Program-made: the position numbers and the translations under genes
The notes under the pieces: generated by a model
Databases searched by the model: none
What the model was told of the DNA's origin: nothing
Seen by the model: only the letters and a program-made list of their open reading frames with translations
Shown: positions 1,589-62,047 of the stretch, piece after piece
Position numbering within the stretch: the first letter of the stretch is position 1
Layout of the letters: the number at the start of each line of letters is the position of its first letter
From: a virus
DNA length: 64,000 bases
IMG/VR virus record: IMGVR_UViG_3300005732_000005
Span: 62,001-126,000 of that record
Strand: one strand, 5' to 3'

Positions 1589-2635
1589 ATGGCAGATATC
1601 CGTCAAGGCGAACAGGGTTTACAGAATTTTACACCACTTATGGACTTAGTTCCTCGCCAAGAGAACATGCTACAACGTATGGGTCTATTCTCTGTAGTAG
1701 AATACACAACTGAGAAAGTAACTGAGTTTGAACGTCGAGTTCTTGGTATTGATACTATGTACTCTGTTGAGCGTGGTGCTGATCGTCAGTATGCTGGTGA
1801 TGAAGGCGCGCAAACAGCGTTACTAAAAATTCCATTCTTCACGTTAGATAAAGTTATCAAGCCTAGCGATGTTGACCAACTACGTGAGTTCTTAACAGCT
1901 ACTGATCCAGAGACAGTTCGTAGCCGTGTTGAGAAAGTTATTGCTCGTATCCAACGTGGTCACGTAGAGTTACACAAGAATGTAATGTATGAAGCACTAG
2001 TTAGTAACTCTACTTATGCTAAAGATCGTGCTGGTAATGACCGTGCTGGTTATGTTAAGAACTTCCAAACAGCTTTCGAAGTTGCTGATGCTGATATGTA
2101 CAACGGTGCGGCTAACGGTGCTAAGACTATCGACCTAGATGACCAAACTATTAACCCAGCAGATGAGTTTGAATTGTTCCGTAAGCACGTATTCAATAAA
2201 GCTGGTGATGGTGGTGACAACTATCGTCTAGTAGTGTTAATGGGTAGCGGTTCATTCACTAAGCTTAAGAATCACTCAGACTACGTAGAAGCTTTTGCTA
2301 ACTATGCTTCTAACGAAGAGCCTTTACGTCAACGTTTAGGTGGTCTACGTACTTCACGTGTTCTTGAGTGGCAGGGTGTTACTTACATCGAAGATGTTTC
2401 TGGTAAGATTGATGATGACAAGATTATCGGTTTCCCACTAGATATGGAAGATATGTTCCAACTTCACTATGGTCATGCTGACACTATCGCTGCTCAGAAT
2501 GGTGATGAGGCTGTTTCAGAAGCTTACCTTTACATCAACGAAACCGATGCTCGTAAGGTTGGCGTTGAAAGTGAAGCTGCTCTTGTGGCATGTATCACAC
2601 GTCCTGAGTTGATCGCTCGTTGGACAGAATCATAA
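1589..2635 (+). CDS. Major capsid protein, lambda gpE family
   Basis: 348 codons, ATG preceded by TTAGAGGAAATTTAAA. The N-terminal MADI..GEQGLQNFTPLMDLVPRQEN, the RRVLGIDTMYSVERGAD stretch, and the C-terminal YLYINETDARKVGVESEAAL and ITRPELIARW stretches are characteristic of the phage major capsid protein E family. Length is normal for the family (about 340 residues). It forms the HK97-fold shell. A strong terminator follows at 2657-2683, so this is probably the last gene of the head transcription unit and highly expressed. Confidence 0.9.
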   Translation: MADIRQGEQGLQNFTPLMDLVPRQENMLQRMGLFSVVEYTTEKVTEFERRVLGIDTMYSVERGADRQYAGDEGAQTALLKIPFFTLDKVIKPSDVDQLREFLTATDPETVRSRVEKVIARIQRGHVELHKNVMYEALVSNSTYAKDRAGNDRAGYVKNFQTAFEVADADMYNGAANGAKTIDLDDQTINPADEFELFRKHVFNKAGDGGDNYRLVVLMGSGSFTKLKNHSDYVEAFANYASNEEPLRQRLGGLRTSRVLEWQGVTYIEDVSGKIDDDKIIGFPLDMEDMFQLHYGHADTIAAQNGDEAVSEAYLYINETDARKVGVESEAALVACITRPELIARWTES

Positions 2636-2656
2636 TCGTTTATAAAACAATGACTT

Positions 2657-2683
2657 AGAGAGGACTTGTTCCTCTCTTCTTTT
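2657..2683 (+). terminator. Intrinsic terminator after the capsid gene
   Basis: Perfect 8-bp stem AGAGAGGA/TCCTCTCT with loop CTTGT, followed by TCTTTT. It lies 21 bp after the capsid stop codon. Confidence 0.8.
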
Positions 2684-2741
2684 ACTAAAGTATTTTCTTA
2701 GTAGAATATTTCACTAAAAGAATAAATCAGGAGAACAAATT

Positions 2742-3251
2742 TTGCAAGTAGCAGTTTTAAAAACTAAAAAACTATTCCTAGAGTTCCTTATTGAAAAGGG
2801 TCTAGATAAAATTAATATGAATAAATCTCTTCAGGACAAAGCTCGTTGGTCTGTATATGTTGATGACTTACGTATCTATAATGCCCGTCTAGCAGACTTA
2901 ATCCTAGAGTTGAACGAGTCTTTAGATATCTTTATTGACCCTTCTAAGAGTCGTCCTTTAACAATCAATGCTATCAAGTTAGTTTATTCAGAGGATAAGA
3001 AAGTTGCCGTACAACAAAAAGAAGCAGCAAAGCAAATCTTCCAAAAAGAAGAAGACAAAGAAGAAGCAAAAGATTCGTCGTTAATTGTTCCTGCGACAGT
3101 TGATTGGAAATGGATTGAGTCTTTAAAGAATAATAAAGAAGATAAAGTTAAGTTGGATGAGTATGCTCAGAAAGAGTTTAATATTGAACTGAAACGTTCT
3201 ATGACTCTTAAGAATATGATCGCTGACTTCAAAGAACAATTAGAAAAATAA
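2742..3251 (+). CDS. Head-region protein with C-terminal HeH/LEM-like motif
   Basis: 169 codons from a TTG at 2742. AGGAGA at about 2730 fixes this start. The protein is highly charged, with a Lys/Glu-rich middle (about residues 85-110). The last 35 residues, with LDEYAQKEFNIEL and SMTLKNMIADF, look like the HeH/SAP-type helix-extended-loop-helix motif that occurs at the C-terminus of many phage head-region proteins and probably binds DNA. The N-terminal 90 residues are not recognised. It is bracketed by two terminators (2657, 3279), so it appears to be transcribed separately or by readthrough. Confidence 0.5.
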   Translation: MQVAVLKTKKLFLEFLIEKGLDKINMNKSLQDKARWSVYVDDLRIYNARLADLILELNESLDIFIDPSKSRPLTINAIKLVYSEDKKVAVQQKEAAKQIFQKEEDKEEAKDSSLIVPATVDWKWIESLKNNKEDKVKLDEYAQKEFNIELKRSMTLKNMIADFKEQLEK

Positions 3252-3339: not shown

Positions 3340-4233
3340 ATGAATTATAACAAAACTGTCTACACATCTCCAATGGTATTTGCGGCAGGACAGGATCATG
3401 AAATAGAAGCTCCTCTAGGTGATACTTATTTCATAACACTGACGGAATGGCAAAACCGCCCTTTAAACCTTCTTCCTGCGAGACCTGCTATTGAAAGAGA
3501 TAAGGTTATACGTAACACCTTGTTTATCCGAGACACTAATAGTCATATTGCAGATATTGTTACAGAAGGTGAAGATTTAAATGTAGTTGTGGCGCTCACA
3601 GAAGCCTATGGGATAGATATCTCATTTGATTGGACAATCACTCACGGTGGAGATTTTATCAACGGAGAAGCGAACTGGGAGAAGGACGAGAGTAACTATA
3701 ACTACCAGCAACTTCACAGAGACACTGTGGATGCGGATTACAACGCAACACTTACTGGGCAAGCTACTATTGCGGCAGGGGATACCACTGTGACTATCAC
3801 TATTCCCACTGTAGACGATGCTGTTTTCACAGGTGGTGAAAACTCTTACAAGGTAAGTACAATCACTTTAAGTAATTACTCTGTCGGTACAGGTGATATT
3901 CTTCCAGATGAAAGTCGTACAAGTTCTTTGATCATTATGAGTGATAGTTCTCCTAGACCTATTATAGAGGGCGTGGTCTCTTTATGGGTTCGTATGGGTG
4001 AAGATACTGAAATGGAGAGATTAGGTGGCAGGTCTGATGCTGTGAGTTTTTCTCTTGGTCAAGACACTAATGGAGATAGTCTTTTAGAAACTTGTATCTT
4101 TGATGATACCCCTATCGAAAAGCTTATTTTTAGAGTAGCGGAAGATCCTACAGCACCCAACGGTGAAGATATTACACAAACCACTTTAAGGTTTAATGCA
4201 CAAATTAAGTCTGGTAGAAGAAACCTAAATTAA
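3340..4233 (+). CDS. Virion/fibre-region protein with Calx-beta-like domain
   Basis: 297 codons. About residues 125-205 contain DYNATLTGQATIAAGDTTVTI, then TIPTVDDAVFTGGENSYKV and ITLSNYSVGTG, and end in SSLIIMSD. This is the pattern of a Calx-beta domain (D-Y..., AG.T..TI.I..., D....E...V.L), an extracellular beta-sandwich seen in adhesins and phage fibres. The flanking regions are not recognised. It is first in a co-directional series of large, low-complexity virion proteins after a terminator, so a tail fibre or head-fibre role is likely but inferred. Confidence 0.5.
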   Translation: MNYNKTVYTSPMVFAAGQDHEIEAPLGDTYFITLTEWQNRPLNLLPARPAIERDKVIRNTLFIRDTNSHIADIVTEGEDLNVVVALTEAYGIDISFDWTITHGGDFINGEANWEKDESNYNYQQLHRDTVDADYNATLTGQATIAAGDTTVTITIPTVDDAVFTGGENSYKVSTITLSNYSVGTGDILPDESRTSSLIIMSDSSPRPIIEGVVSLWVRMGEDTEMERLGGRSDAVSFSLGQDTNGDSLLETCIFDDTPIEKLIFRVAEDPTAPNGEDITQTTLRFNAQIKSGRRNLN

Positions 4234-4234
4234 G

Positions 4235-4243
4235 TGTTATAAT
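4235..4243 (+). promoter_or_regulatory. Extended -10 promoter TGTTATAAT
   Basis: TG-T-TATAAT just after the stop codon at 4233 and 29 bp before the next ATG (4272). No convincing -35. It is one of about ten near-identical extended -10 sites in the window. Confidence 0.65.
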
Positions 4244-4271
4244 AGTAGTATTAACAGAATAAGGAGCTATT

Positions 4272-6116
4272 ATGGCTATACCTAAGAGAGGATCTGGTGT
4301 TCCACCAAGGTCTGTTGGAGGAAAAGGTGGTGAAATTGCTGTACATAACACAGACTGTTCCTTACCCAATGAAGTATCTTCCTCAGTTAAAAGATTGGTA
4401 ATAGGTGAAGGTTTAGGTTTCACAGCTTATGTAGATGCTGATGATGAAGGTTGTATAATCATAGGGCAGCCGCCAAACTTCCTACCACCTCTTTGGCAAA
4501 TGGATAACCAAACCTCAACTATTGTAAGAGTAGGTCTTCCTGATGGAGGTAACTTCTTTGCAGGGCTAAATGATAACTGGGCAGGAACAGCGCGCACTGC
4601 AACACAGAACACATCACTAACATGGACTTCTGGACAATCAACGGGTTTCGGAAGTACATCCTCTGTTAATGTAAATATTACTGATGGTGGTTTGACACCT
4701 TATGCCAATTTGAATTTCCCTACAGCAGGTAACAGTGATACCACAACTGGTAGAGTACGGGTTCGTGTTACAGGTACAACTGCTGATGGTGATGGTAGTC
4801 GGAATGCAGCAACCATTGCAATAACGGTAGATTTACAAGGTTTACTTGATGATGCGGGAAATGGGCATACATCAGGTAGTTTTAGAGTAAGATTCACTCA
4901 CACAGATTTTGACGGTACTCAAAGGGTTTTTGAAGAAAGTTTCTTCTTAGATGATAATAATAATGCAGATATATTTATAAACCCTAATGCAACTGGCTTA
5001 AGAGAGTTTCACATAGAACGTGTACAACACGGTATAGGTAACGGTATTGTTAAGTACTTATCAGGTATTGGTTATTATACAACAGGTACTCGTTACAGTA
5101 TGACCACAGGTGTTGTTGAGAATCATAATCTTGACAGTAGTCGTGTAGACCAAAGTTATGTATTTGATATGGATGGTTTTGGAGTAGCTGACTATAATAC
5201 ATCTCCTTGGACTAGTGTCTCAGATTTCCAACTTATGCTTACAGATGTTGATAGGTTTGATAATCAAATGGGTTATGTACCTGATGACAGTACTAATACT
5301 ATCAACCGAGCAAACTTTAGACATATAGGATTTACTCAAGCACTAGTTAATGTTCGAGATGCTTGGGGTAGTAGTCCACAATACCCTTCTCCTAGTTTTA
5401 ACATGATGGTTGACACTTTTACTGATGATAGTACCAATCTAATTGAAACCTTCAACGGAGAAACTTTACGCTTAGAGGGTGATTATGCAACACCTTGGGA
5501 TAGTGAAACTATTAGAGCTGACGGCCATGCAATTGTGTTTGGTGGGGGATTGTATCGTGGAGTAGACTTGCCTACTATAGACGAGAATGTTTTAGGGGTA
5601 ACAGGTAGTTTAGGGGATGCTTCTGCATTCTTTCCTGACAAGTTTATGGATGACTCTGTAAGACCACAACCTAATTATTCAACTCACGCACAAAAGGCTG
5701 TATACTTCAGAGAGTTCAGGGCAAACAACCCAACCACCAGTTACGGCAGTATGACATTCACTATTACAACAGAGAATGGTATTGAGACGGATATCAATGC
5801 AGGTAATGTTGAAATTTACATTTGGAAGTTAGGTTCTAGTGCTCCAACTTCACCCAACCTAGTATTACCTCCAACATACGACCCTGCTAACCCTGACCTA
5901 AGTAAGGTTAATAGTATTTGGTTACATGAACCTTATGACTTTGGTAATTTTGATGACGGTGCTACACAAAATGTAGGTACGAATGGTTGCCTAGTTAATA
6001 TAGCAGGTAGTACTTTAACAGCTACCTTTGGTGGTGCTAATGTTGAAGGTGGTGTATTAGTAAGAATAGATATAAGCGGAGGCGCTAGGATAGATCATAT
6101 AGTAGCCGCTTTTTAA
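4272..6116 (+). CDS. Putative tail fibre / adhesin, 614 aa
   Basis: AAGGAG lies 5 bp upstream of the ATG. The protein is rich in Asn, Thr, Gly and Asp with alternating short beta-like segments, has no signal peptide or transmembrane segment, and a Pro/Gly-rich N-terminus (MAIPKRGSGVPPRSVGGKGG). Composition and neighbours fit a fibre-like receptor-binding or virion surface protein. I recognise no named domain. An aromatic- and Asp-rich C-terminal half could be carbohydrate-binding, but this is inference. Confidence 0.45.
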   Translation: MAIPKRGSGVPPRSVGGKGGEIAVHNTDCSLPNEVSSSVKRLVIGEGLGFTAYVDADDEGCIIIGQPPNFLPPLWQMDNQTSTIVRVGLPDGGNFFAGLNDNWAGTARTATQNTSLTWTSGQSTGFGSTSSVNVNITDGGLTPYANLNFPTAGNSDTTTGRVRVRVTGTTADGDGSRNAATIAITVDLQGLLDDAGNGHTSGSFRVRFTHTDFDGTQRVFEESFFLDDNNNADIFINPNATGLREFHIERVQHGIGNGIVKYLSGIGYYTTGTRYSMTTGVVENHNLDSSRVDQSYVFDMDGFGVADYNTSPWTSVSDFQLMLTDVDRFDNQMGYVPDDSTNTINRANFRHIGFTQALVNVRDAWGSSPQYPSPSFNMMVDTFTDDSTNLIETFNGETLRLEGDYATPWDSETIRADGHAIVFGGGLYRGVDLPTIDENVLGVTGSLGDASAFFPDKFMDDSVRPQPNYSTHAQKAVYFREFRANNPTTSYGSMTFTITTENGIETDINAGNVEIYIWKLGSSAPTSPNLVLPPTYDPANPDLSKVNSIWLHEPYDFGNFDDGATQNVGTNGCLVNIAGSTLTATFGGANVEGGVLVRIDISGGARIDHIVAAF

Positions 6117-6130
6117 AGTAAGGACTTGAT

Positions 6131-6280
6131 ATGCAATTTTATAAAAACATTTCGTTGGTGGAAATCTCTGACGGAAAGTGGCAACTAGTGGTGAAGGTTA
6201 ATGAGGTTAAAGAAGAGCGTATTAACTTGACAGATTCTCAACTTAACTACATCCTCTCTATGTTCCGTCAAGGAGTTTAA
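6131..6280 (+). CDS. Small protein, 49 aa
   Basis: ATG at 6131 with AAGGA ahead, stop TAA 2 bp before the next gene at 6283. Starts MQFYKNISLVEISDGKW and ends LNYILSMFRQGV. Charged, soluble and not recognised. Tight packing and a good ribosome binding site support that it is real. A small chaperone for the neighbouring fibres is possible but speculative. Confidence 0.6.
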   Translation: MQFYKNISLVEISDGKWQLVVKVNEVKEERINLTDSQLNYILSMFRQGV

Positions 6281-6282
6281 AT

Positions 6283-9111
6283 ATGGCTTTTACGAACGAG
6301 GAGATTATAAAACTAGCTGGTAATGTTCTAGCAGCGGGGGTTATAGATGCGGCAGGTAATAGTTGGTACGAAACATTAAACCCTAATAGTTTCATTACAG
6401 ACCCAGAAAGTATTTGGTCAGACATGACCTCTTTAAAAGGATTACCTGCTGATAACTTCAATCAAGCCGTACAAAACAGTGTAAATAATCCTGACCTTAT
6501 TGGAAGATACGGTATTGACGATGATGGTACTTTTAATGACACCACTGCATTAAGATTAACTCCCGTTGCAGGTACGAATAATACAACTTATATTTGTTAT
6601 AACGCATTTGGTGATCCTTCTGGGGGTGTTCAGAAAAACTGGATACAACCTCAGTTAATACCTAGGTCGAATGGTTTCCCTAGTTCAGCCTACTCACCTG
6701 TAATATTTTCAGGTTTACCTAGTGGAGGTAATAGGATACTCACTTCTTCTGGTAATGACGGTAACTGGGTATCACACTTCTGGAATCCTGCGGGTGGTTT
6801 GTTACTAATTTCTACTGATGAAGCGCCCCCTTCTGCGGTATTCCCTTCACAAGATTTATACCTCTGTGGTTTCTTTTATAATGGACAAACAGGCGGGGCA
6901 GGGGGTTCTTCAGGTAGCAGTATCTTATTAGAAGATCCTAACGGTAGGTGGAGAATTACGGCAGAGGATGGTGCTCATTTACATTTCCAGAGATGGGATT
7001 TAGAAGGTGGTGTACCTCAATGGAACACTCACTTTAAAATAGGCGCTTCTGCAACCACTGATGGTATCAACCTAACTAAACCTTATGCAATAAATGCCGA
7101 CCTCAATTTAAACTCCTTAGAGGACGGTGGTGACCCTATACTGAGGCCTATATTCTCTGTCAAGGATTTAGATGAGAACTTTGTATACGGCAATAGCGAC
7201 CACACTACAGTACTTGAAACAGCTAAAGGTAAAGAAGTAGAAAGAGCTGTAACTGTAATAAATCAACAGGAGTTTGAAAACAGACCCTTGTTTGATGAAG
7301 ATATAGTTTTAGATACCACAGATACTCCTGAACCAGACAGTGTTACAGAAATATCTTGGCACAGCGATATTAATTACAGTACAGATGCTTCTCATATACG
7401 TTTCAATGAAATAGCTTTTGATGTAGTGGAGTCTAGTGACGATGTTAATGGTGTACCTATAAGAATATCTGTTGAAAGGCAAGATGGAGAATTAGTACAA
7501 GAGAATATCAGTCTAGCTTCCCTCCAAGCGGGTGTTAATGGCGGTTTTAACTTTAAAACGGGTTATAATTTTTACACAATAAACCCTAAGTACAGTGATG
7601 TGCGTACTGCAAGAAACATCACTAGATTACAATTACCTATAGGTTACAAGGTTAAACTTAAGGGTGGTACTTATACCTTCTTCAATACTCAAACCAATCA
7701 AATGGAGAACCAGTTTGTACCTAGGCAAAAGTCTAAAGTTGAGTATGTGAATTATGTTAATGTCCTTGACGGTTCTAATGTAAAAGAGGAAGTGTACAAA
7801 GATTCTAATGTTGTATTGGATCACGGTGTAGGTAGTTGGTATCCAACTGAGACTACTCAGTTTACATCGCTGGCCTCCCCCTCTGAACATTCTGATATAT
7901 CCAGAGCGGTACTCGGTAATTATAACTCCAAGACATACGTTGCTTCAGGTAATGAAGGTCTACATATACTTTTCCAAGACGACTCAACTAGAAGACAATT
8001 CTGGACAGAACCCTCAGTAGAGCGCAGGAATGCAGGGGATGTACCACTACAAACAAAAACTATATCACGTCTTGAGATTGACGTAGAGAATTTGTTTGCT
8101 TCTGAATTGCAAGAGACGATTTGGGATGTAGTCAACATTGAGAAGATTTTACCTTTATTCAGGTATGAAGGCGATACACCTATCTCTTATCGTGTCTCCA
8201 TCGAATCTGCAAATAGTGTGGGTAATTTCTTGTTACAGGAAAACCAGACTAGGTATGCCTTACTGAATAAGAAGGGGGATACAAGGTTTGTTATAAATCC
8301 TGCAAACAACCCTACTGACCCAGACTACCACGAATTACGGTTACCTAGAGAAACCCTGACTGTGGATAACTTCACCAAAAAGAAGATAGTTTTTGAGTTC
8401 CATGAACCTATAAAAGTTTACGGTAACTATATAAATGTAACAGACCCTTTAGATCCTGAAGGTACAGGAACTTTTATTCCTAGTATAAAAGCTACGGTGG
8501 TACGAGTATTTGAGAGACCTATTGTTACAGGAGATGACTTAGAGCAACGGGTAGATGAAATAGAAGGTCAACAAGAGTGGGCTTATGCTACGCAACATAA
8601 TTGGCCCACTATTCATGAGATACCTACGGATATGTGGTTGGCAGATGGTGATGGAGAACCTATCTTCTGGGCTGAGGAGTCAGGGCTGGCAGCAGACCAA
8701 GACGAACATCAATGGTTGTTCGATACAGGGATGGAAGCTTATTACCAACCTTTAATCACCCAAGGTACTGTAGCTAATAACAATATAACCTTAAACCCCT
8801 TAGTTGTTCATGTACCTTATGATTCTGTTAAAGAGTTTAGTGTGGTATTCGGTTGGGATAATTCTTTGAATGATGATCCGCTTATCGAGACTGCTAGTTT
8901 TACATTTTACATAGCTACACATGGAAGAAATGCTGATACACAAATTAGTATACAAGTACCTAAAGGTGCAAGCTTAATTTACAATTTCACTAAGAGACGT
9001 AACGGAAGATATGGCTATAGGGCAACCCCGTTTAATGATAATCTTGCATCTACTTCGCAAGTAGGTGACTTATCTGACACATACCCTGCAGATCCGAATC
9101 CACCAATTTAA
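6283..9111 (+). CDS. Large putative tail fibre protein, 942 aa
   Basis: Largest ORF of the fibre block; AAGGAG overlaps the previous stop. Rich in Asn, Asp, Thr and Gly. The N-terminal MAFTNEEIIKLAGNVLAAGVID is a short helix that may attach to a partner. The middle has IILEDPNGRWRITAEDG-like beta segments, and the C-terminal 200 residues contain a helix (DDLEQRVDEIEGQQEW) of the kind that often precedes a trimeric distal domain. No enzyme motif is seen. Receptor binding is inferred from size and genomic position. Confidence 0.5.
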   Translation: MAFTNEEIIKLAGNVLAAGVIDAAGNSWYETLNPNSFITDPESIWSDMTSLKGLPADNFNQAVQNSVNNPDLIGRYGIDDDGTFNDTTALRLTPVAGTNNTTYICYNAFGDPSGGVQKNWIQPQLIPRSNGFPSSAYSPVIFSGLPSGGNRILTSSGNDGNWVSHFWNPAGGLLLISTDEAPPSAVFPSQDLYLCGFFYNGQTGGAGGSSGSSILLEDPNGRWRITAEDGAHLHFQRWDLEGGVPQWNTHFKIGASATTDGINLTKPYAINADLNLNSLEDGGDPILRPIFSVKDLDENFVYGNSDHTTVLETAKGKEVERAVTVINQQEFENRPLFDEDIVLDTTDTPEPDSVTEISWHSDINYSTDASHIRFNEIAFDVVESSDDVNGVPIRISVERQDGELVQENISLASLQAGVNGGFNFKTGYNFYTINPKYSDVRTARNITRLQLPIGYKVKLKGGTYTFFNTQTNQMENQFVPRQKSKVEYVNYVNVLDGSNVKEEVYKDSNVVLDHGVGSWYPTETTQFTSLASPSEHSDISRAVLGNYNSKTYVASGNEGLHILFQDDSTRRQFWTEPSVERRNAGDVPLQTKTISRLEIDVENLFASELQETIWDVVNIEKILPLFRYEGDTPISYRVSIESANSVGNFLLQENQTRYALLNKKGDTRFVINPANNPTDPDYHELRLPRETLTVDNFTKKKIVFEFHEPIKVYGNYINVTDPLDPEGTGTFIPSIKATVVRVFERPIVTGDDLEQRVDEIEGQQEWAYATQHNWPTIHEIPTDMWLADGDGEPIFWAEESGLAADQDEHQWLFDTGMEAYYQPLITQGTVANNNITLNPLVVHVPYDSVKEFSVVFGWDNSLNDDPLIETASFTFYIATHGRNADTQISIQVPKGASLIYNFTKRRNGRYGYRATPFNDNLASTSQVGDLSDTYPADPNPPI

Positions 9112-20314: not shown

Positions 20315-20360
20315 AGAGTATTATATATTGTCAAGAATGATTTTTGTTGAGGAGGTGATT

Positions 20361-21614
20361 TTGAGAGGAATAGAAGATAGTTTTACAGGTACAAAGTTTG
20401 ATACTCCTAAAGGAGGTGTACTTACTGTGCTAGGTCATAATGGTTTGGCAGGGAATAAGAGGAAGTATTTCGTTGAGTGCAACATTTGTAGCAAGGATGA
20501 GGAGTTATTTCCTGATGGTTTTGTCTCCAGTAAAGGTAACCTTTTAATTGGTAGGATTCCGTGTGGCTGTGCTGTTAGTACTAAGTGGACGGAAGATCAA
20601 AGAATTGTCCAGATAAAACGGAAGTGTGAAGAGAGGGGTTACGATTTTCTAGGGTTGGCAGAAGAGTTTAAAGGTGGTCGTACTAAATTGAAGTTGTACA
20701 ATCCCAAAACAAACAATACTTGGGAAAGTTCAAATATAACAGGTTTCCTTCGAGGAAGTGGAGATCCTATTGAAGGGTTTTTGAAAACTAAGGAGGCTAG
20801 TACTTCACTTGATGAGGTACACATTGAAGAGTTTATTAAGACAGGTAAGTTCTTAGAAGGCACAACCTTCACACGTAATACAACTAAGAAGGATTCTAGA
20901 GGAAGGTATCCGTACTGGGATGTAATATGTCCTTTGTGCAGTGATGATGAATACGTGAAGAATCGTGTATGTTCTGGTATTTTTTCATGCGCGACCAGTC
21001 ACCTTAAAAGGGGTAAACTTACCTGCAGGTGCTCCAAAACTTACCGTTGGACACAAGATCAAAGAGAGTATCAAATCGGAAAAGTATGCTCGCAAGAAAA
21101 CCTTACTTTCATTGGTTGGGAGGGAGAGTATAAAAACTGTAAAAGTAAATTTAATTGGAAGTGCTCAGAAGGCCATAGGAACGTAACTTCTTTAAATGAT
21201 TTCTTAAAAGGTATCAGATGTACACAATGTTTTCAAGAATACTCGGTTATTAACGGTTATTACCCTGACCGAACGAAAGAACAAGATTACTTATATATCT
21301 ACTATTTATCTGAGGAGAATTATCTAAAGGTAGGAAGAAGCTTCAACTTAAGCCGAAGGCAAAAAGAGAACCAAATACGTATAAATAACTACAACCCACA
21401 TTCAAAAATACGTGTCCTTAAAACCTTTACAGGTACTCACAAAGATATATACGATCTTGAACAAAAAATCCTATCTGACTTGAAAAGTTTCCAAGTAAAT
21501 GGTTACGGTTCGAGTGAATTATTGTCTGTAGAAGCCTTACCTTCTATATGGAATATCATTAATAGTTGTCAGGAAGTGACTCTATACCAAAATAAACTTA
21601 TAAAAGAGGAATAA
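20361..21614 (+). CDS. GIY-YIG/T5orf172-like nuclease domain with zinc-finger repeats
   Basis: TTG start at 20361, chosen because a full anti-SD match (GAGGAGGTGAT) lies 5 bases upstream; an earlier in-frame TTG falls in the promoter. Two zinc-binding repeats, each with CxxC...CxC followed by W-T-x-D-Q-R and a F-x-G segment, span about 35-300. The last 100 residues (YLYIYYLS, YLKVGRSFNLSRR, DLEQKILSDL) look like a GIY-YIG-type fold of the T5orf172 sort: Y-I-Y, K-V-G-R, and a late Glu. It is likely a free-standing mobile or homing endonuclease. It is an isolated unit between virion genes, typical for such insertions. Confidence 0.6.
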   Translation: MRGIEDSFTGTKFDTPKGGVLTVLGHNGLAGNKRKYFVECNICSKDEELFPDGFVSSKGNLLIGRIPCGCAVSTKWTEDQRIVQIKRKCEERGYDFLGLAEEFKGGRTKLKLYNPKTNNTWESSNITGFLRGSGDPIEGFLKTKEASTSLDEVHIEEFIKTGKFLEGTTFTRNTTKKDSRGRYPYWDVICPLCSDDEYVKNRVCSGIFSCATSHLKRGKLTCRCSKTYRWTQDQREYQIGKVCSQENLTFIGWEGEYKNCKSKFNWKCSEGHRNVTSLNDFLKGIRCTQCFQEYSVINGYYPDRTKEQDYLYIYYLSEENYLKVGRSFNLSRRQKENQIRINNYNPHSKIRVLKTFTGTHKDIYDLEQKILSDLKSFQVNGYGSSELLSVEALPSIWNIINSCQEVTLYQNKLIKEE

Positions 21615-49239: not shown

Positions 49240-50307
49240 TCACACAATAGATGTGTATCGTTCTTGACGAACCAGAGGGTAGATGTTGCCATCAAAGAGT
49301 TTATAGCATTTTTGAGGAGGAAGATCCTCCTTGACAACCTTCATCGTTGTCTGGTGAGGCTTATTCTGAAACTTGTACCATAAGCACTCATTGGTCTTCC
49401 CAGTTTTATTGGTGTAGAAACCCTTACTTCCCGTAGAAACATTATAACCTGAAAGAATTCCAGCAAGATGAACACCTTCAGATATATTTGTCCAGTTCTG
49501 AGTGATAACTTTTATACCATTTTTACTAAGGTGTCCATCTGCTTTTTGAAAAGCATCCATAAAGGCTTCGACATTACTGGTCGGTTGATCAATAATAAAC
49601 CCAACAAGGTCTATTTTATATTTACAAAGTCTTTCAAACCCTAATTTTTCCCAGTAATCCCTGAACCATTGAGACTCTATGTAGTAGTTTCTGCATACGT
49701 TTGGTGACCGTTTTCTCTTGTGTGAGAAAGATAAGCAGCCTAACCTATTCATTAAGTTTTCTATCTCCTTGCCATACTTGTTATCATTCTGAGTTACTGT
49801 TGCAATGACACCTTTCCTTTTACCAAAAGATGCTGATGTCCTCTCAGATTTCTTGCTCCAACTTATATATCCGTCAGATAATAACCACCCTAGTAATCTA
49901 CACTCGTCTTCTGTTATATTAGTTTCACTGTTGTTCCGAAATGTAGCGCTGTTTCTGATATGGAATTCGCAAGATAAATTGTCCACATTCCTATGATCCA
50001 AAATATGTTTTCTGGAATTATCTGATAGAGTCATTCTCCTATATCCAAAAACTTTGTTGTCCTTTGAATACTTAAATTTCCAAAAACTATGTGATAACTC
50101 TACAACGCCCTTAAAACCTTCATGGATATTCTCAATAGTGTACCAAGAGTATTTGAATTCTTGGTCGGAACAAAGGATCTCTGTACCATTATAAATGTTC
50201 CAGACGGGTTTCCAACCTTGTTTAGTTAAGACATAACTGTCATCCGTAATCCAAGAATCAGATTCCATGTCACTTCTTTCATGTAAAATAATGTTGCTCA
50301 AACTCAA
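49240..50307 (-). CDS. LAGLIDADG endonuclease-like protein with Hint/intein-like N-terminus
   Basis: 355 codons from a TTG at 50307 with AAGGAG six bases upstream (an ATG 14 codons later is possible). N-terminal part: SDSWITDDSYVLTKQGWKPV, then ...GTEILCSDQEF resembles the first blocks of inteins (residue 1, D-[ST]-x-V-x-T-x-x-G). Two LAGLIDADG-type helices follow: ECRLLGWLLSDGYISW and VEAFMDAFQKADGHLS. No terminal His-Asn and no C-extein, so it is not an active intein; it is a free-standing gene. Sits directly after the intron-bearing polymerase and may mobilise its introns in trans. Confidence 0.6.
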   Translation of the reverse strand: MSLSNIILHERSDMESDSWITDDSYVLTKQGWKPVWNIYNGTEILCSDQEFKYSWYTIENIHEGFKGVVELSHSFWKFKYSKDNKVFGYRRMTLSDNSRKHILDHRNVDNLSCEFHIRNSATFRNNSETNITEDECRLLGWLLSDGYISWSKKSERTSASFGKRKGVIATVTQNDNKYGKEIENLMNRLGCLSFSHKRKRSPNVCRNYYIESQWFRDYWEKLGFERLCKYKIDLVGFIIDQPTSNVEAFMDAFQKADGHLSKNGIKVITQNWTNISEGVHLAGILSGYNVSTGSKGFYTNKTGKTNECLWYKFQNKPHQTTMKVVKEDLPPQKCYKLFDGNIYPLVRQERYTSIV

Positions 50308-50333
50308 TATTTTCTCCTTATTTATTAATAAAC

Positions 50334-50357
50334 AAAAATACCACCCCGAAGGGTGGT
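50334..50357 (-). terminator. Terminator with UUCG loop after DNA polymerase
   Basis: ACCACCC-TTCG-GGGTGGT perfect 7-bp stem on the - strand, followed by ATTTTTG. Separates the polymerase from the LAGLIDADG gene. Confidence 0.9.
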
Positions 50358-50366
50358 TAGTTAAAA

Positions 50367-53300
50367 TTAGTGTGCTCCAGCCCACCCTTCTGTGTGATGA
50401 GCTACCAAGTATTCCCCTGTAATGTGTACAGGACAGTTTAATTCCTTGTAGGCATCCTCTATACACCTTACCATTAACTCACCTGCTCTGGAGTAGCACC
50501 TTCCTATACTTCCGTCCTCAAGAACTTTAGTATTACCTGAAAGTATAAATTTTCCACCCTCAAGATTATCAGCCTGATCTTTTGCCTCTATGATACACTT
50601 GAGTTGCTCCATTGTCATGTTGTATTCTTTTAGCATTTCTTTAGCTGTCTTATAGGGCTTCCCTTTTGATTTAGCTTTCTTAGATTTAGCTACATCTGCA
50701 AGTAATCTTTTTACAAGGTCTTGATCTGAAAAACCTGTTTCAAATCTCTTCCATCGGACAAGTTTGTCTGGAACTTGTAGCTGGTATTCATCCTTCCTGT
50801 TATAAGAGTCGTTAGCTCTTTCTGAGATCACTCTCAGTGTCGGGTCATATCACATTCCACGAGGGAATCCCACCGTTTCAGATACACTTGTATCCTACGA
50901 ACAACTACGTTCTGACCTCCGCACGTTCCCTTTCGGGCTTCGCTCAGGATTACCTCGTAAGGCTTCCCTGAATTAGATGGGTTTTTCGACATACATTGCT
51001 GTATGAAGCCACAATGAGTTTATGGTAGTAAATGGTCCTAGCTACACCCTTATCCAACAAACCTTCTTCTAAAGCTCTCTCGTGCCACAAAATACCTGCC
51101 AAATCCATCCCTATAGCTCCTGCACTTTGGAGATAACAATTTAACAATGAGTGCTTACTTCGTGTCCAGATTTTTCTTCCGTCAACGGCAACGATATACT
51201 TTTTACCTGAAGATTCCCAAACTTTCTCTAGATGTTCCTTTCTTTTCTTTAATCCGATGTTTCCATCCCAGAAAGCATCAATAACTTTTTGTCCTACTTC
51301 CTTACTTACTCCTAACATATTTGCTATTTTAGGGGCTGCTGCACCATACATTATCGTTACAGTCACACAAGGTCGTTAATCTTGCGCGGTTCTCTTATGA
51401 ACTCCTGTACGTCTCCGTACAGACTAGACTATATCTTTCTCTTCAACTTTACTTGTTAAGAGATCTGCCGTTTCGATTTAAAGCTTTCCGCTACCACTTG
51501 GCTCTACTCCCATCTCAGGGATAGTCGTTACACGTTCAAGAACATAATGTTCAAGCTTCGCTCGGTATTGTCTCTTCAAAAGAAGTAACTTCCACCGAAT
51601 TAGACAGTATTCAATTATAGGTTTCCCTATAAAGGGGCTAATTATTTAACCATAAGTGATGCCTTTGCCACCTTGCCTAGTTACCTCCCTTCCTGCAGCC
51701 TTGGAGTAGTTTTCAGCATTTCTTGAGTGAGCATCTTCTTCCTCCATTATCCTAAGATATTCTCCTCCGTCAAAGTCATAGGCTGCCCACGCTGCACACA
51801 TCCCTTCCAAGTTACTACCATCGATACCTAGTTGCCAGAATCCTTTTGGAACGGTGAATAAGCTCCTCATTTCATGACCTAAAAGTGCATCTGTAGAAGG
51901 TATATTTGCTATAACTGAGTGTTTTCTGCGATTCGTATTGGTCAGACCACTATATCTTGCAGGTAATTTACCATCTATTTTCAGACGAGGGTGGTTCAGC
52001 CAACCAGTTTCCTTATCTTCGTCAAAAGCTTTAATTACCGACCTCCTGTTACGAAGAGATAGCCACTTAACTATCTGACCCGCCATCTCACCATCAATCT
52101 TTTCCAGATTAGGGCAAAGCTCCCCACGATCATCTTTCAACTTTGCAGACATCGGTAAGAATCTTCCCTTTTTAACCACCCTTTGCATATCTTTGTGCTT
52201 CTCAGAGGTGATTTTCCTAATATCGAAGCCCATCTCCTCATTAATCCATTTTATGTAGATGGAGTCCTTCTTATCCTGCACCCATTCCCATGCCCTTTCC
52301 AAGACTTCAAATTCTGGGCGGTTCTTCTTGTTCTCGTCTCTTGTAACATCTTTTGTTCCTAGTATGGTAGGTATCCAACCACCTTCCTTAACCAACCACT
52401 CCTTTATATCTGCCTGATTAGCTAGTTTCATCGGCTCTTTTAAGAACTCTTCTGGAATATGTCTATCCTCTAATTGTTTTCTTAGTTTCTTCATCTGGTC
52501 ATCAGGTAAAGGAACTAAGGTATTAGCTTTATTAAGCTGACCACGTATAAAATCGGGCATCTTATCTTCATCCTCCACACCCATCTTAATACAATAGTTA
52601 TAACCGTTCTTACTTAGAGATCCGTCCTTCTTAAAGGCAGTTTTCGGAGGAGATACGTGTTGAAAGTATTCCTCATTAGGTTTGTAGCCTAAATACTTTC
52701 TTGCATAGTTCCATCCGTGACTACTTATTTCCCCTGCCTTATCAAAAGGATTAGCTGGAAAGTTAGGTTGACGACTCTCAGGTACATGTTTTAAAGGCAG
52801 TTTGGGTTCCACATCTTCCTCTATTTCCCTCATCATACTATCCACTTTCTCAAGCAATTTCCAAGCAGCCTTTTCATCGAAGACTACTCCCTGCTCCTCT
52901 TGGATTTGCATCAGATAGTCTGATTGAGAATTTCTTAATAAGGGAACTCTCCAATCAATACCCTTATCCTTCCCATCCTGAGATTCTTTAACCAAAGCTT
53001 GCCATTGCAATTCATTTATGATCACATCAACCCATACTCTGTCGCAATACTTCCACAAAGGTAGCCCTCTCCAGTCTTCTATTTGAACTTTTTGATTTGC
53101 AAGCTTATAGCCCCAGCTCTCTAATGAATGGCTGCCAATCGTCTTAGCCTTACCTCCAGAAGGATTCTTAACCTTAGAGGGACATCCGTGAGGTAATGGT
53201 CGGTCAGGGTATAGTGCCCTTGACATACTTAGTGTATCAAACAATCTTAGTTTTCTACTACCAATACTTTCTGGAAACATACTTGATTCCAATCCAAATT

Positions 53301-57069: not shown

Positions 57070-57274
57070 TACCACTCTCCATAAGACGACCCCACTCTTC
57101 ACTTAAAATCTTCTCTACAGATTCTCTGTGGTATTTCAATTGTGACAAATGATTCCATAAAACAGGATTCACTTCCACCTTAAAGAACTCTGGAGCAATG
57201 TCCTTAAACCCTTCATCAAGATTATAATACTCTTGAATCATTAATATTTCATATTCGTTTGGTAACTTACTCAT
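57062..57274 (-). CDS. Hypothetical protein, 70 aa
   Basis: ATG at 57274 overlapping the lipoprotein gene end. Helical, acidic (YEILMIQEYYNLDEGFKDIA, YHRESVEKILSEEWGRLMES). Not recognised. Confidence 0.55.
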   Translation of the reverse strand: MSKLPNEYEILMIQEYYNLDEGFKDIAPEFFKVEVNPVLWNHLSQLKYHRESVEKILSEEWGRLMESGNE

Positions 57275-57515
57275 CACCTACCCCTCTTTCTAAAACAGTA
57301 TTTTTATAAGAGTTTAGATCCCATTCAGTTGGGTCACCTTTACACCAAACACCTGCCTGACCTGAAAAATATTCCGACATATAATTTACAGTACTCCCTT
57401 TCTCAGCACAAAGCTTTTCAGCATAATAAATATCTACACCATCGATTGTTTGCCAAAAACAACCTGACAAGGATAGTACTCCTGCAGTAATAATTGACAT
57501 CTTAATTTTACTCAT
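57267..57515 (-). CDS. Lipoprotein, 82 aa
   Basis: AGGAAATATTTGTT ahead of the ATG. N-terminal MSKIKMSIITAGVLSLSGC ends in a lipobox (L-S-G-C, Cys19), so the mature protein would be lipid-anchored at the outer or inner membrane. Mature part has two more Cys (KLCAEKG, VWCKG). Candidate superinfection-exclusion or o-spanin-like protein; not proven. Driven by the promoter at 57551-57580 with an overlapping palindrome. Confidence 0.65.
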   Translation of the reverse strand: MSKIKMSIITAGVLSLSGCFWQTIDGVDIYYAEKLCAEKGSTVNYMSEYFSGQAGVWCKGDPTEWDLNSYKNTVLERGVGDE

Positions 57516-57550
57516 AACAAATATTTCCTCCGTCTATCCACTATTTTAAT

Positions 57551-57580
57551 ATATTAATACCTATCTTTAGTGATTGTCAA
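57551..57580 (-). promoter_or_regulatory. Promoter TTGACA - 17/18 bp - TTAATA/TAATAT (minus strand)
   Basis: TTGACA at 57580-57575; -10 at 57557-57551. Drives the lipoprotein gene at 57515. Confidence 0.7.
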
Positions 57581-57587
57581 TCACTAA
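57567..57587. promoter_or_regulatory. Operator-like 21-bp palindrome over the -35
   Basis: Perfect inverted repeat with 10-bp arms TTAGTGATTG/CAATCACTAA and a single central base (57577), overlapping the TTGACA of the lipoprotein promoter. The shape is that of a dimeric repressor site. Confidence 0.65.
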
Positions 57588-57616
57588 TTAGACAAATTTG
57601 TATTTATTTAAAATAA

Positions 57617-57625
57617 TGTTATAAT
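57617..57625 (+). promoter_or_regulatory. Extended -10 promoter TGTTATAAT facing the structured RNA
   Basis: TG-T-TATAAT on the + strand, although all genes within 3 kb are on the - strand. Predicted start near 57631. Confidence 0.65.
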
Positions 57626-57630
57626 TAAGT

Positions 57631-57800
57631 ATAGGGTGCAGGGAAAGCAGAGCTTTCTTTACGTCACCACCCTGATACTTGGTTAATCCTGTATAAACCA
57701 CTAGGTTTGATTAGGTTCGAAACTGATCACTATAAACGCTTAGAGGCAAAGCCTCAACGCTTAGGACTGAATCCGTTTAGTGGATAGCGTTAGCTATCTT
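57631..57800 (+). ncRNA. Candidate structured non-coding RNA, unknown class
   Basis: About 170 nt with no ORF, behind a + strand promoter. Nested stem 57627-57638/57668-57680 (12 bp, one bulged G) enclosing the perfect hairpin GAAAGC-AGA-GCTTTC (57643-57657). Next AAACC-ACTA-GGTTT (57695-57708) extended by TAATC/GATTA, or alternatively GATTAG/CTGATC (57709-57728). Then an outer stem 57728-57738/57774-57782 around GAGGC-AAA-GCCTC (57743-57755). Last GATAGC-GTTA-GCTATC (57783-57798). The 9-mer AACGCTTAG occurs twice (57735, 57756). No known phage RNA family is recognised. The first stem extends about 4 bp upstream of the expected start site, so the true 5' end is uncertain. Confidence 0.55.
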
Positions 57801-57898
57801 CAGTATGTGGCATCACAATTTTCTTGACTAGCCAAATCTTCTAATACTTGTTGTATTGGGTGAAGTTCATCCCATCTTAAAGGGTGTTTAATTTCCAT
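57800..57898 (-). CDS. Small protein, 32 aa
   Basis: ATG at 57898 inside the end of the gene at 57877, preceded by GGAGGAAGA. Reads MEIKHPLRWDELHPIQQVLE and ends ENCDATY. Last gene of the leftward small-gene series; its stop codon abuts the RNA hairpin. Confidence 0.5.
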   Translation of the reverse strand: MEIKHPLRWDELHPIQQVLEDLASQENCDATY

Positions 57899-61828: not shown

Positions 61829-62047
61829 ATGAGTAACAGGTTAGATATTAAGATTTTAGGTGTGACTGTATGACATCATTTCAATATGATCAGTGAACAT
61901 ACGAAAGATAAGGGTAATTTAGATTGGAACTTGTTAGTGAATAGTGGTACACAGATTGTAACAAGAGAAGTTTGGGGGCATACTTATGAAATTGTTTTTA
62001 GTTATTGCCCTTATGAGGAAATTCTTATAGCAGAGTGTGTAAGATGA
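61829..62047 (+). pseudogene. Small gene interrupted by an in-frame TGA
   Basis: ATG at 61829 with AGGAG upstream. After MSNRLDIKILGVTV an in-frame TGA (61871-61873) occurs, but the same frame stays open for 57 more codons (HHFNMISEHTKDKGN, then ...VWGHTYEIVFSYCP and ending AECVR) to a stop that overlaps the next gene by ATGA. Either a recent nonsense mutation (one base from TGG) or UGA readthrough; context UGAC is leaky. Confidence 0.55.

Follow-up and report, generated by a model that had tools for sequence, protein, structure and literature searches.

A phage genome without a TnpB/Cas12-like nuclease carries an orphan single-guide RNA of this phage nuclease family

The structured RNA element at positions 57617-57800 of the window, as the 64,000-nucleotide stretch of viral DNA analysed here is called (IMG/VR record IMGVR_UViG_3300005732_000005, positions 62,001 to 126,000), is firmly homologous to the guide RNAs of TnpB/Cas12-like nucleases encoded by phages, and represents an orphan single-guide RNA of that family. 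The initial annotation had taken it for a regulatory or decoy RNA of no class that could be named, a description now superseded by its identification as a guide-RNA scaffold of that nuclease family. Our preferred reading, to which we give a probability of about 0.58, is that of a non-autonomous, mobile natural single-guide RNA that would use the nuclease of a co-infecting phage in trans. Judged by its helicase, the phage of the window is related to Vibrio phage 11895-B1 and to the Vequintavirinae. Its 140-kb genome has ends that are identical over 68 bp and is thus complete, and the nuclease was not found anywhere in it, which is why the RNA is termed an orphan. Regularly spaced repeats of the CRISPR-array kind were likewise not found in this genome.

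When IMG/VR was scanned for pairs of AACGCTTAG separated by a variable gap, 13 matches were returned, one of them a true homologue on a 7-kb contig (L025), while the other 12 bear no resemblance to the element. L025 is a fragment of a relative of the window phage, with one gene 88% identical in protein, and its copy of the RNA (L025-up) is 93% identical to the window element over 183 nt. This copy adjoins, divergently, the gene for a 483-aa TnpB-family nuclease with a Cas12f1-like/TnpB zinc-ribbon domain (Pfam, E 1e-15), which scores 108 bits with NCBIfam guided_TnpB against a cutoff of 100 and is called Cas12u3/Cas12f by PADLOC. Relatives of the nuclease are encoded by Pseudoalteromonas phage J2-1 (82%) and by L039 (85%), a contig binned with a Flavobacteriaceae MAG; the three proteins, 82-85% identical, have in common zinc fingers and an invariant D266/E349/D440 triad. 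An AlphaFold model made from the three sequences was poor (pLDDT 49) and was set aside. The J2-1 gene (L034 8001-9452; MF370964.1 85576-87027) is unannotated in its GenBank record. L039 also encodes a second, ordinary TnpB (369 aa; 294-1403, + strand); three tRNA genes lie in the roughly 900 bp that separate it from the Cas12-like nuclease downstream.

A homologous RNA lies directly 3' of the nuclease gene in all three cases, preceded in L025 and J2-1 by TTGACT-N17-TATAAT. In L025 and L039 this downstream RNA consists of a tracrRNA plus a mini-CRISPR array: it terminates with an anti-repeat (GATATAACACCAT in L025), which base-pairs with the repeat GTGTTATATCACATACGTGATATGTA, present in two copies in L025 and three in L039 with a period of 60 nt. 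The arrays, with repeats of 26-28 nt, occupy L025 4218-4320 (- strand) and L039 4097-4245 (+ strand), and their spacers had zero matches in the known phage collection searched. The J2-1 form is a single omegaRNA-like molecule in which the scaffold is joined to the repeat end. We built a covariance model (R1) from these three nuclease-linked RNAs alone, leaving out the window sequence; over model positions 1-161 it matches 57628-57782 of the window (90.4 bits, E 2.2e-18), and its search of the whole window genome gave no other convincing match. A blastn comparison gave 82% identity over 56 nt. Scanning for the patterns GATTAGGTTCGAAACTGATC, CTTAGGACTGAATCCGTTTAG and TCACCACCCTGATACTTG gave no copies besides L025, the RNA is absent from the relatives recovered through the helicase gene (L002-L010), and a DNA similarity search of phages and plasmids with the element gave short AT-rich matches only. 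No Rfam family matched at either gathering or permissive thresholds. ARAGORN recognized neither a tRNA cloverleaf nor a tmRNA in the element, and the initial annotation too had seen no cloverleaf form; hammerhead and tmRNA-like readings were dropped as the required motifs are missing from the sequence. The features of the locus are as follows.

57267..57515, - strand: small lipoprotein-like ORF, at the place where L025 has the nuclease gene
57551..57580, - strand: leftward sigma70-like promoter TTGACA-N18-TAATAT; the aligned L025 region precedes the nuclease gene
57567..57587: near-perfect 21-bp palindrome TTAGTGATTGTCAATCACTAA, overlapping the leftward -35 and aligning to the divergent promoter region between nuclease and RNA in L025
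57589-57617, + strand: second rightward promoter candidate TAGACA-N17-AATAAT
57598..57625, + strand: rightward promoter candidate TTGTAT-N16-TATAAT with TG extension, proposed from sequence
57629..57782, + strand: guide-RNA scaffold, homologous to the tracrRNA/omegaRNA of the phage TnpB/Cas12-like nuclease (covariance model R1)
57633..57673, + strand: helices A (57633-57638/57668-57673; 100% paired) and B (57640-57648/57652-57660; both-side changes in 6 of 9 pairs)
57677..57716, + strand: helix C (57677-57691/57702-57716), a long conserved hairpin; 14 pairs, 100% paired, 7 of 14 with both-side changes
57728..57782, + strand: helix E2 (57728-57738/57774-57782, 2-nt bulge) around hairpin E1 (57743-57747/57751-57755)
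57783..57798, + strand: hairpin GATAGC-GTTA-GCTATC, in the place of the repeat:anti-repeat duplex of the tracrRNA/crRNA form; natural single-guide form
57799..57811, + strand: 3' handle TTCAGTATGTGGC, resembling the CRISPR repeat 3' end (GTGATATGTAAG) and the 3' ends of the J2-1 and HM1 RNAs
57800..57898, - strand: 32-codon ORF with GGAGG upstream, the remaining N-terminal part of a gene for a PinA-like Lon protease inhibitor; abuts the element and was overlooked in the initial annotation
57812..57832, + strand: predicted guide ATCACAATTTTCTTGACTAGC, of assumed length, lying antisense to the QENCD codons in the pinA-like ORF

The + strand of 57617-57800 folds with -57.6 kcal/mol versus -41.4 in shuffles (z -4.1), and none of 200 shuffles equalled it. 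Across an alignment of five sequences, a small sample in which two rows are near-identical, the 43 pairs of the five helices are 98% paired and 17 of them are changed on both sides, as compared to 6.5 in shuffles (0 of 500); sliding the pairing partners abolishes the signal. Covariation, which had been put forward as a check on the structure, is thus present in these five helices. In particular, the region of helix E2 and its enclosed hairpin E1 carries a compensatory change from CAC/GUG to CUC/GAG in L039. Helix C was revealed by the comparison of homologues and missed by single-sequence folding, and 13 of its 14 pairs are also found in a sixth, very different copy from phage HM1 (6 of 20,000 shuffles as good). 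The five stems originally described hold in part: the nested 12-bp stem with its inner hairpin (57629-57680), the hairpins at 57743-57755 and 57783-57798 and the bulged long-range stem are retained, whereas the two small hairpins AAACC-ACTA-GGTTT and GATTAG-GTTCGAAA-CTGATC are not part of the conserved fold, homologues supporting helix C instead, whose 3' side overlaps the T-loop-like GTTCGAAA. Similarly, the 9-mer AACGCTTAG is indeed duplicated in the window, at 57735 and 57756, but the duplication is absent from the three nuclease-linked RNAs. A 10-nt inverted repeat on the DNA, TAGTGGATAG, is common to 57534-57543, in the leader of the leftward mRNA, and 57778-57787, in the 3' part of the RNA.

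The window and L025-up RNAs share the single-guide form, in which the short hairpin GATAGC-GTTA-GCTATC replaces the repeat:anti-repeat duplex. The handle UAUGUR(A/G)(G/C) is common to the copies and the sequence diverges beyond it; in the window and in L025-up it ends in UAUGUGGC or UAUGUGAC, matching the repeat 3' end UAUGUAAG. The identity between these two RNAs ends right after the handle, as would be expected for a guide. The functional unit reaches beyond 57800, with the handle extending to 57811 and the predicted guide beginning at 57812, a start fixed by alignment of the handle; the 3' end of the window RNA is predicted as ATCACAATTTTCTTGACTAG.

The neighbourhood of the element bears out the original description of an intergenic RNA: genes on both sides run leftward, no ORF lies inside, and an extended -10, TGtTATAAT, is present at 57617-57625, which fits a promoter of its own on the + strand. 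The palindrome TTAGTGATTGTCAATCACTAA has a single copy in the window, and no relative of the lipoprotein-like ORF was found in IMG/VR. The ORF at 57800-57898 corresponds to the N-terminal half of a Lon-protease inhibitor, PinA-like, that is known from Vequintavirinae and T4-like phages; the element cuts this gene short, and the point of truncation is exactly the start of the predicted guide. Elsewhere in the window, a group I intron (Rfam RF00028, 74.9 bits) lies at 51405-51657 (- strand) in the region of the leftward DNA polymerase gene, near a 408-aa ORF (49240-50466) that may encode a homing endonuclease, and the 428-aa protein encoded at 20328-21614 (+ strand) combines four stretches of CapR homology (Pfam PF21817, E 1e-53) with a weak T5orf172 domain.

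The insertion junctions of the relatives connect guides with empty alleles. The J2-1 guide is identical at 30 of 30 positions to its sister phage HM1, which is without the nuclease and has TTCC just 5' of the match, and the 93% homology between J2-1 and HM1 picks up again exactly at nucleotide 1 of the J2-1 guide. In L025, the cassette at 4218-6413 corresponds to an uninterrupted stretch of the window phage (L049 about 2444-3197), which is thus the empty allele for the cassette. Its terminal guides start at, or at most 1 nt from, both cassette junctions, run outward, and match the window phage at the junctions at 25 of 27 positions and, after CTCC, at 27 of 34; the target of L025-up in the window phage has TATT on its 5' side, not CC. 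Near-identical RNAs occupy different loci in related phages, pinA in the window and the gene-B locus in L025, implying that the element is mobile. For the window guide, a search of IMG/VR found no exact target, and no sister phage with an exact match was found. Six vequintavirus pinA alleles match it at 16-20 of 25 positions, the bases abutting the junction being CTCC in five and CACC in one, and Karamvirus pinA matches at 23 of 25 without the -CC motif. Overall, CC precedes guide position 1 in four of five site classes (chance 1/16 each), the exception being the L025-up site with TATT, a count that reads the J2-1 empty allele for the HM1 RNA as TACC and needs a 1-nt indel to do so.

A second orphan is the copy of the RNA found in HM1 itself (46.8 bits, E 1e-8); it lies beside tRNA genes and is an insertion relative to J2-1, where the site is empty. 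Homology between the two phages resumes 7 nt past the HM1 handle with 28 exact bases. J2-1 and HM1 are thus a reciprocal pair, the former carrying the nuclease and a guide for the empty allele of HM1, the latter an orphan guide for the empty allele of J2-1. On either side of the HM1 RNA is a copy of a small element (GGTGTCTTTATGCA...GTTATTT), which J2-1 has once; the HM1 copies lie at L052 about 4140-4510 (KF302034.1 72139-72509), next to tRNA-Arg and tRNA-Lys genes.

The most economical reading of these data is RNA-guided homing between phages, with orphan guides that would rely on a nuclease supplied by a co-infecting relative. The RNA is ordered as scaffold, hairpin, repeat-like handle and a guide derived from the flanking DNA. 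It would be made from the rightward promoter during infection and loaded in trans by the nuclease of a co-infecting sister phage, and the complex would then cut phage genomes that carry an intact pinA-like allele beside the -CC motif (YTCC). Repair of the cut may then introduce a copy of the RNA element at that site (homing); alternatively, the genome that was cut may be lost (interference). The carrier genome is proposed to be spared because the RNA, and not the motif, adjoins the guide sequence. The presence of the nuclease in sister phages points to phages borrowing, or redirecting, one another's cutting enzyme within one cell. Some observations sit less well with this reading: no sister phage with an exact match to the window guide was found, the L025-up target shows TATT instead of CC, 7 nt separate the HM1 handle from the exact 28-nt match to J2-1, and a relic that no longer works would look identical.

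Such a relic would have arisen if a full cassette had homed into pinA and then lost its nuclease, leaving an RNA that decays without function and a leftward promoter that drives the neighbouring genes. The homology to L025 does take in the divergent promoter region, another gene fills the position of the nuclease, and pinA remains truncated. Against decay, however, several differences from L025-up fall in loops while the helices persist, promoter elements are present, and the second orphan in HM1 points to a recurrent state rather than a single accident; we consider a relic unlikely. The same low probability is given to the decoy function suggested initially, in which the orphan RNA would act as an RNA anti-nuclease, occupying the nuclease of a rival phage and blocking that phage's own guides, two of which match the genome of the window phage. 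The window phage would be a natural target, as it is the empty allele for the L025 cassette and is matched by the terminal guides at 25/27 and 27/34; the orphan scaffold is close to L025-up, and phage RNAs that mimic CRISPR repeats (Racrs) inhibit Cas proteins (PMC10651486). On the other hand, L025 has retained the same single-guide RNA next to a nuclease of its own, a setting in which a pure decoy would defeat itself, and the handle is intact and continues into flank-derived sequence, as in the J2-1 RNA. The decoy thus stays as a rival that is not favoured, and the regulatory role named along with it finds no positive support.

Much less probable is a guide for gene silencing, whereby a partial match would let the nuclease bind without cutting and repress a gene in the manner of TldR. 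Related nuclease-dead TnpBs are repressors in phages (PMC13418256) and the L025-up RNA is divergent to the nuclease promoter, but the active site is intact in all three relatives and the guides are full-length flank sequence. Finally, the position in a promoter region between operons would suit an unrelated phage regulatory RNA or leader with an accidental likeness to nuclease-linked RNAs. An E-value of 2e-18 across the whole model contradicts such an accident, as do the blastn identity of 82% over 56 nt and the direct linkage to the nuclease in L025; this is the least probable of the explanations.

The favoured reading, a mobile guide acting through a borrowed nuclease, has counterparts in known systems. 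TnpB/omegaRNA of IS200/IS605 and IS607 elements share the RuvC nuclease family, the order of scaffold and guide with the guide matching the element flank, and a motif beside the guide in the empty allele, and TnpB of insertion sequences acts like a homing or gene-drive nuclease, including gene drive in plasmids (PMC8612924, PMC11870625). An empty allele of this style, with motif and guide, is seen for J2-1/HM1 (30/30 after TTCC), and for the window in distant pinA alleles only (16-20/25). Unlike those elements, the present family is carried by large tailed phages, and the window RNA stands alone, with its own predicted promoter, in a genome without the nuclease; no TnpA transposase was seen among the ORFs around the nuclease in L025, L039 and J2-1. 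The tracrRNA and 60-nt-period mini-array beside a Cas12u3/Cas12f-like protein in L025 and L039 recall type V-F/V-U CRISPR-Cas (Cas12f, Cas12u), from which the family differs in that no adaptation genes were seen, the RNA takes the form of a fused single guide in the window, and the terminal guides match insertion flanks. Viral mini-arrays borrow host CRISPR against related viruses (PMC11656645); here too a virus would supply the guide alone and borrow a nuclease to harm relatives. The mini-arrays use host Cas proteins, whereas the candidate donor here is another phage and scaffold and guide form one RNA. Racrs are likewise solitary phage-encoded RNAs that mimic part of a guide RNA, but as single repeat units, while the window RNA comprises a whole scaffold, handle and guide. 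The homing endonuclease gp210 of PhiPA3 cuts the co-infecting relative PhiKZ (PMC11620839), again a phage nuclease acting on a co-infecting relative, with protein-only recognition in place of an RNA guide. Moreover, a study of TldR notes that a broken tldR locus may still supply guide RNAs in trans (PMC13418256). A literature search of incomplete coverage returned no account of orphan single-guide RNAs in phages with nuclease-bearing sisters.

In transposons and plasmids, RNA-guided nucleases are known to further their own spread, and competition between phages is known to be decided by protein homing endonucleases. A nuclease-less mobile guide RNA in two separate phage lineages with nuclease-bearing sister phages would, if true, join both fields: some 200 bp and a borrowed enzyme would be all that selfish spread requires. 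More tentatively, and at somewhat less than even odds, phages of one group may share a trans-acting guide-RNA economy, in which nuclease-bearers aim homing at their sisters and nuclease-less phages hijack the aggressor's nuclease through mobile orphan guides directed against the aggressor's alleles; the reciprocal HM1/J2-1 pair would then be a natural example. Collectively, these findings offer a predicted target motif and make guide-RNA action between co-infecting phages directly testable, and a compact nuclease family in which tracrRNA, fused and single-guide forms of the RNA occur side by side may be useful for understanding the origin of CRISPR from TnpB.
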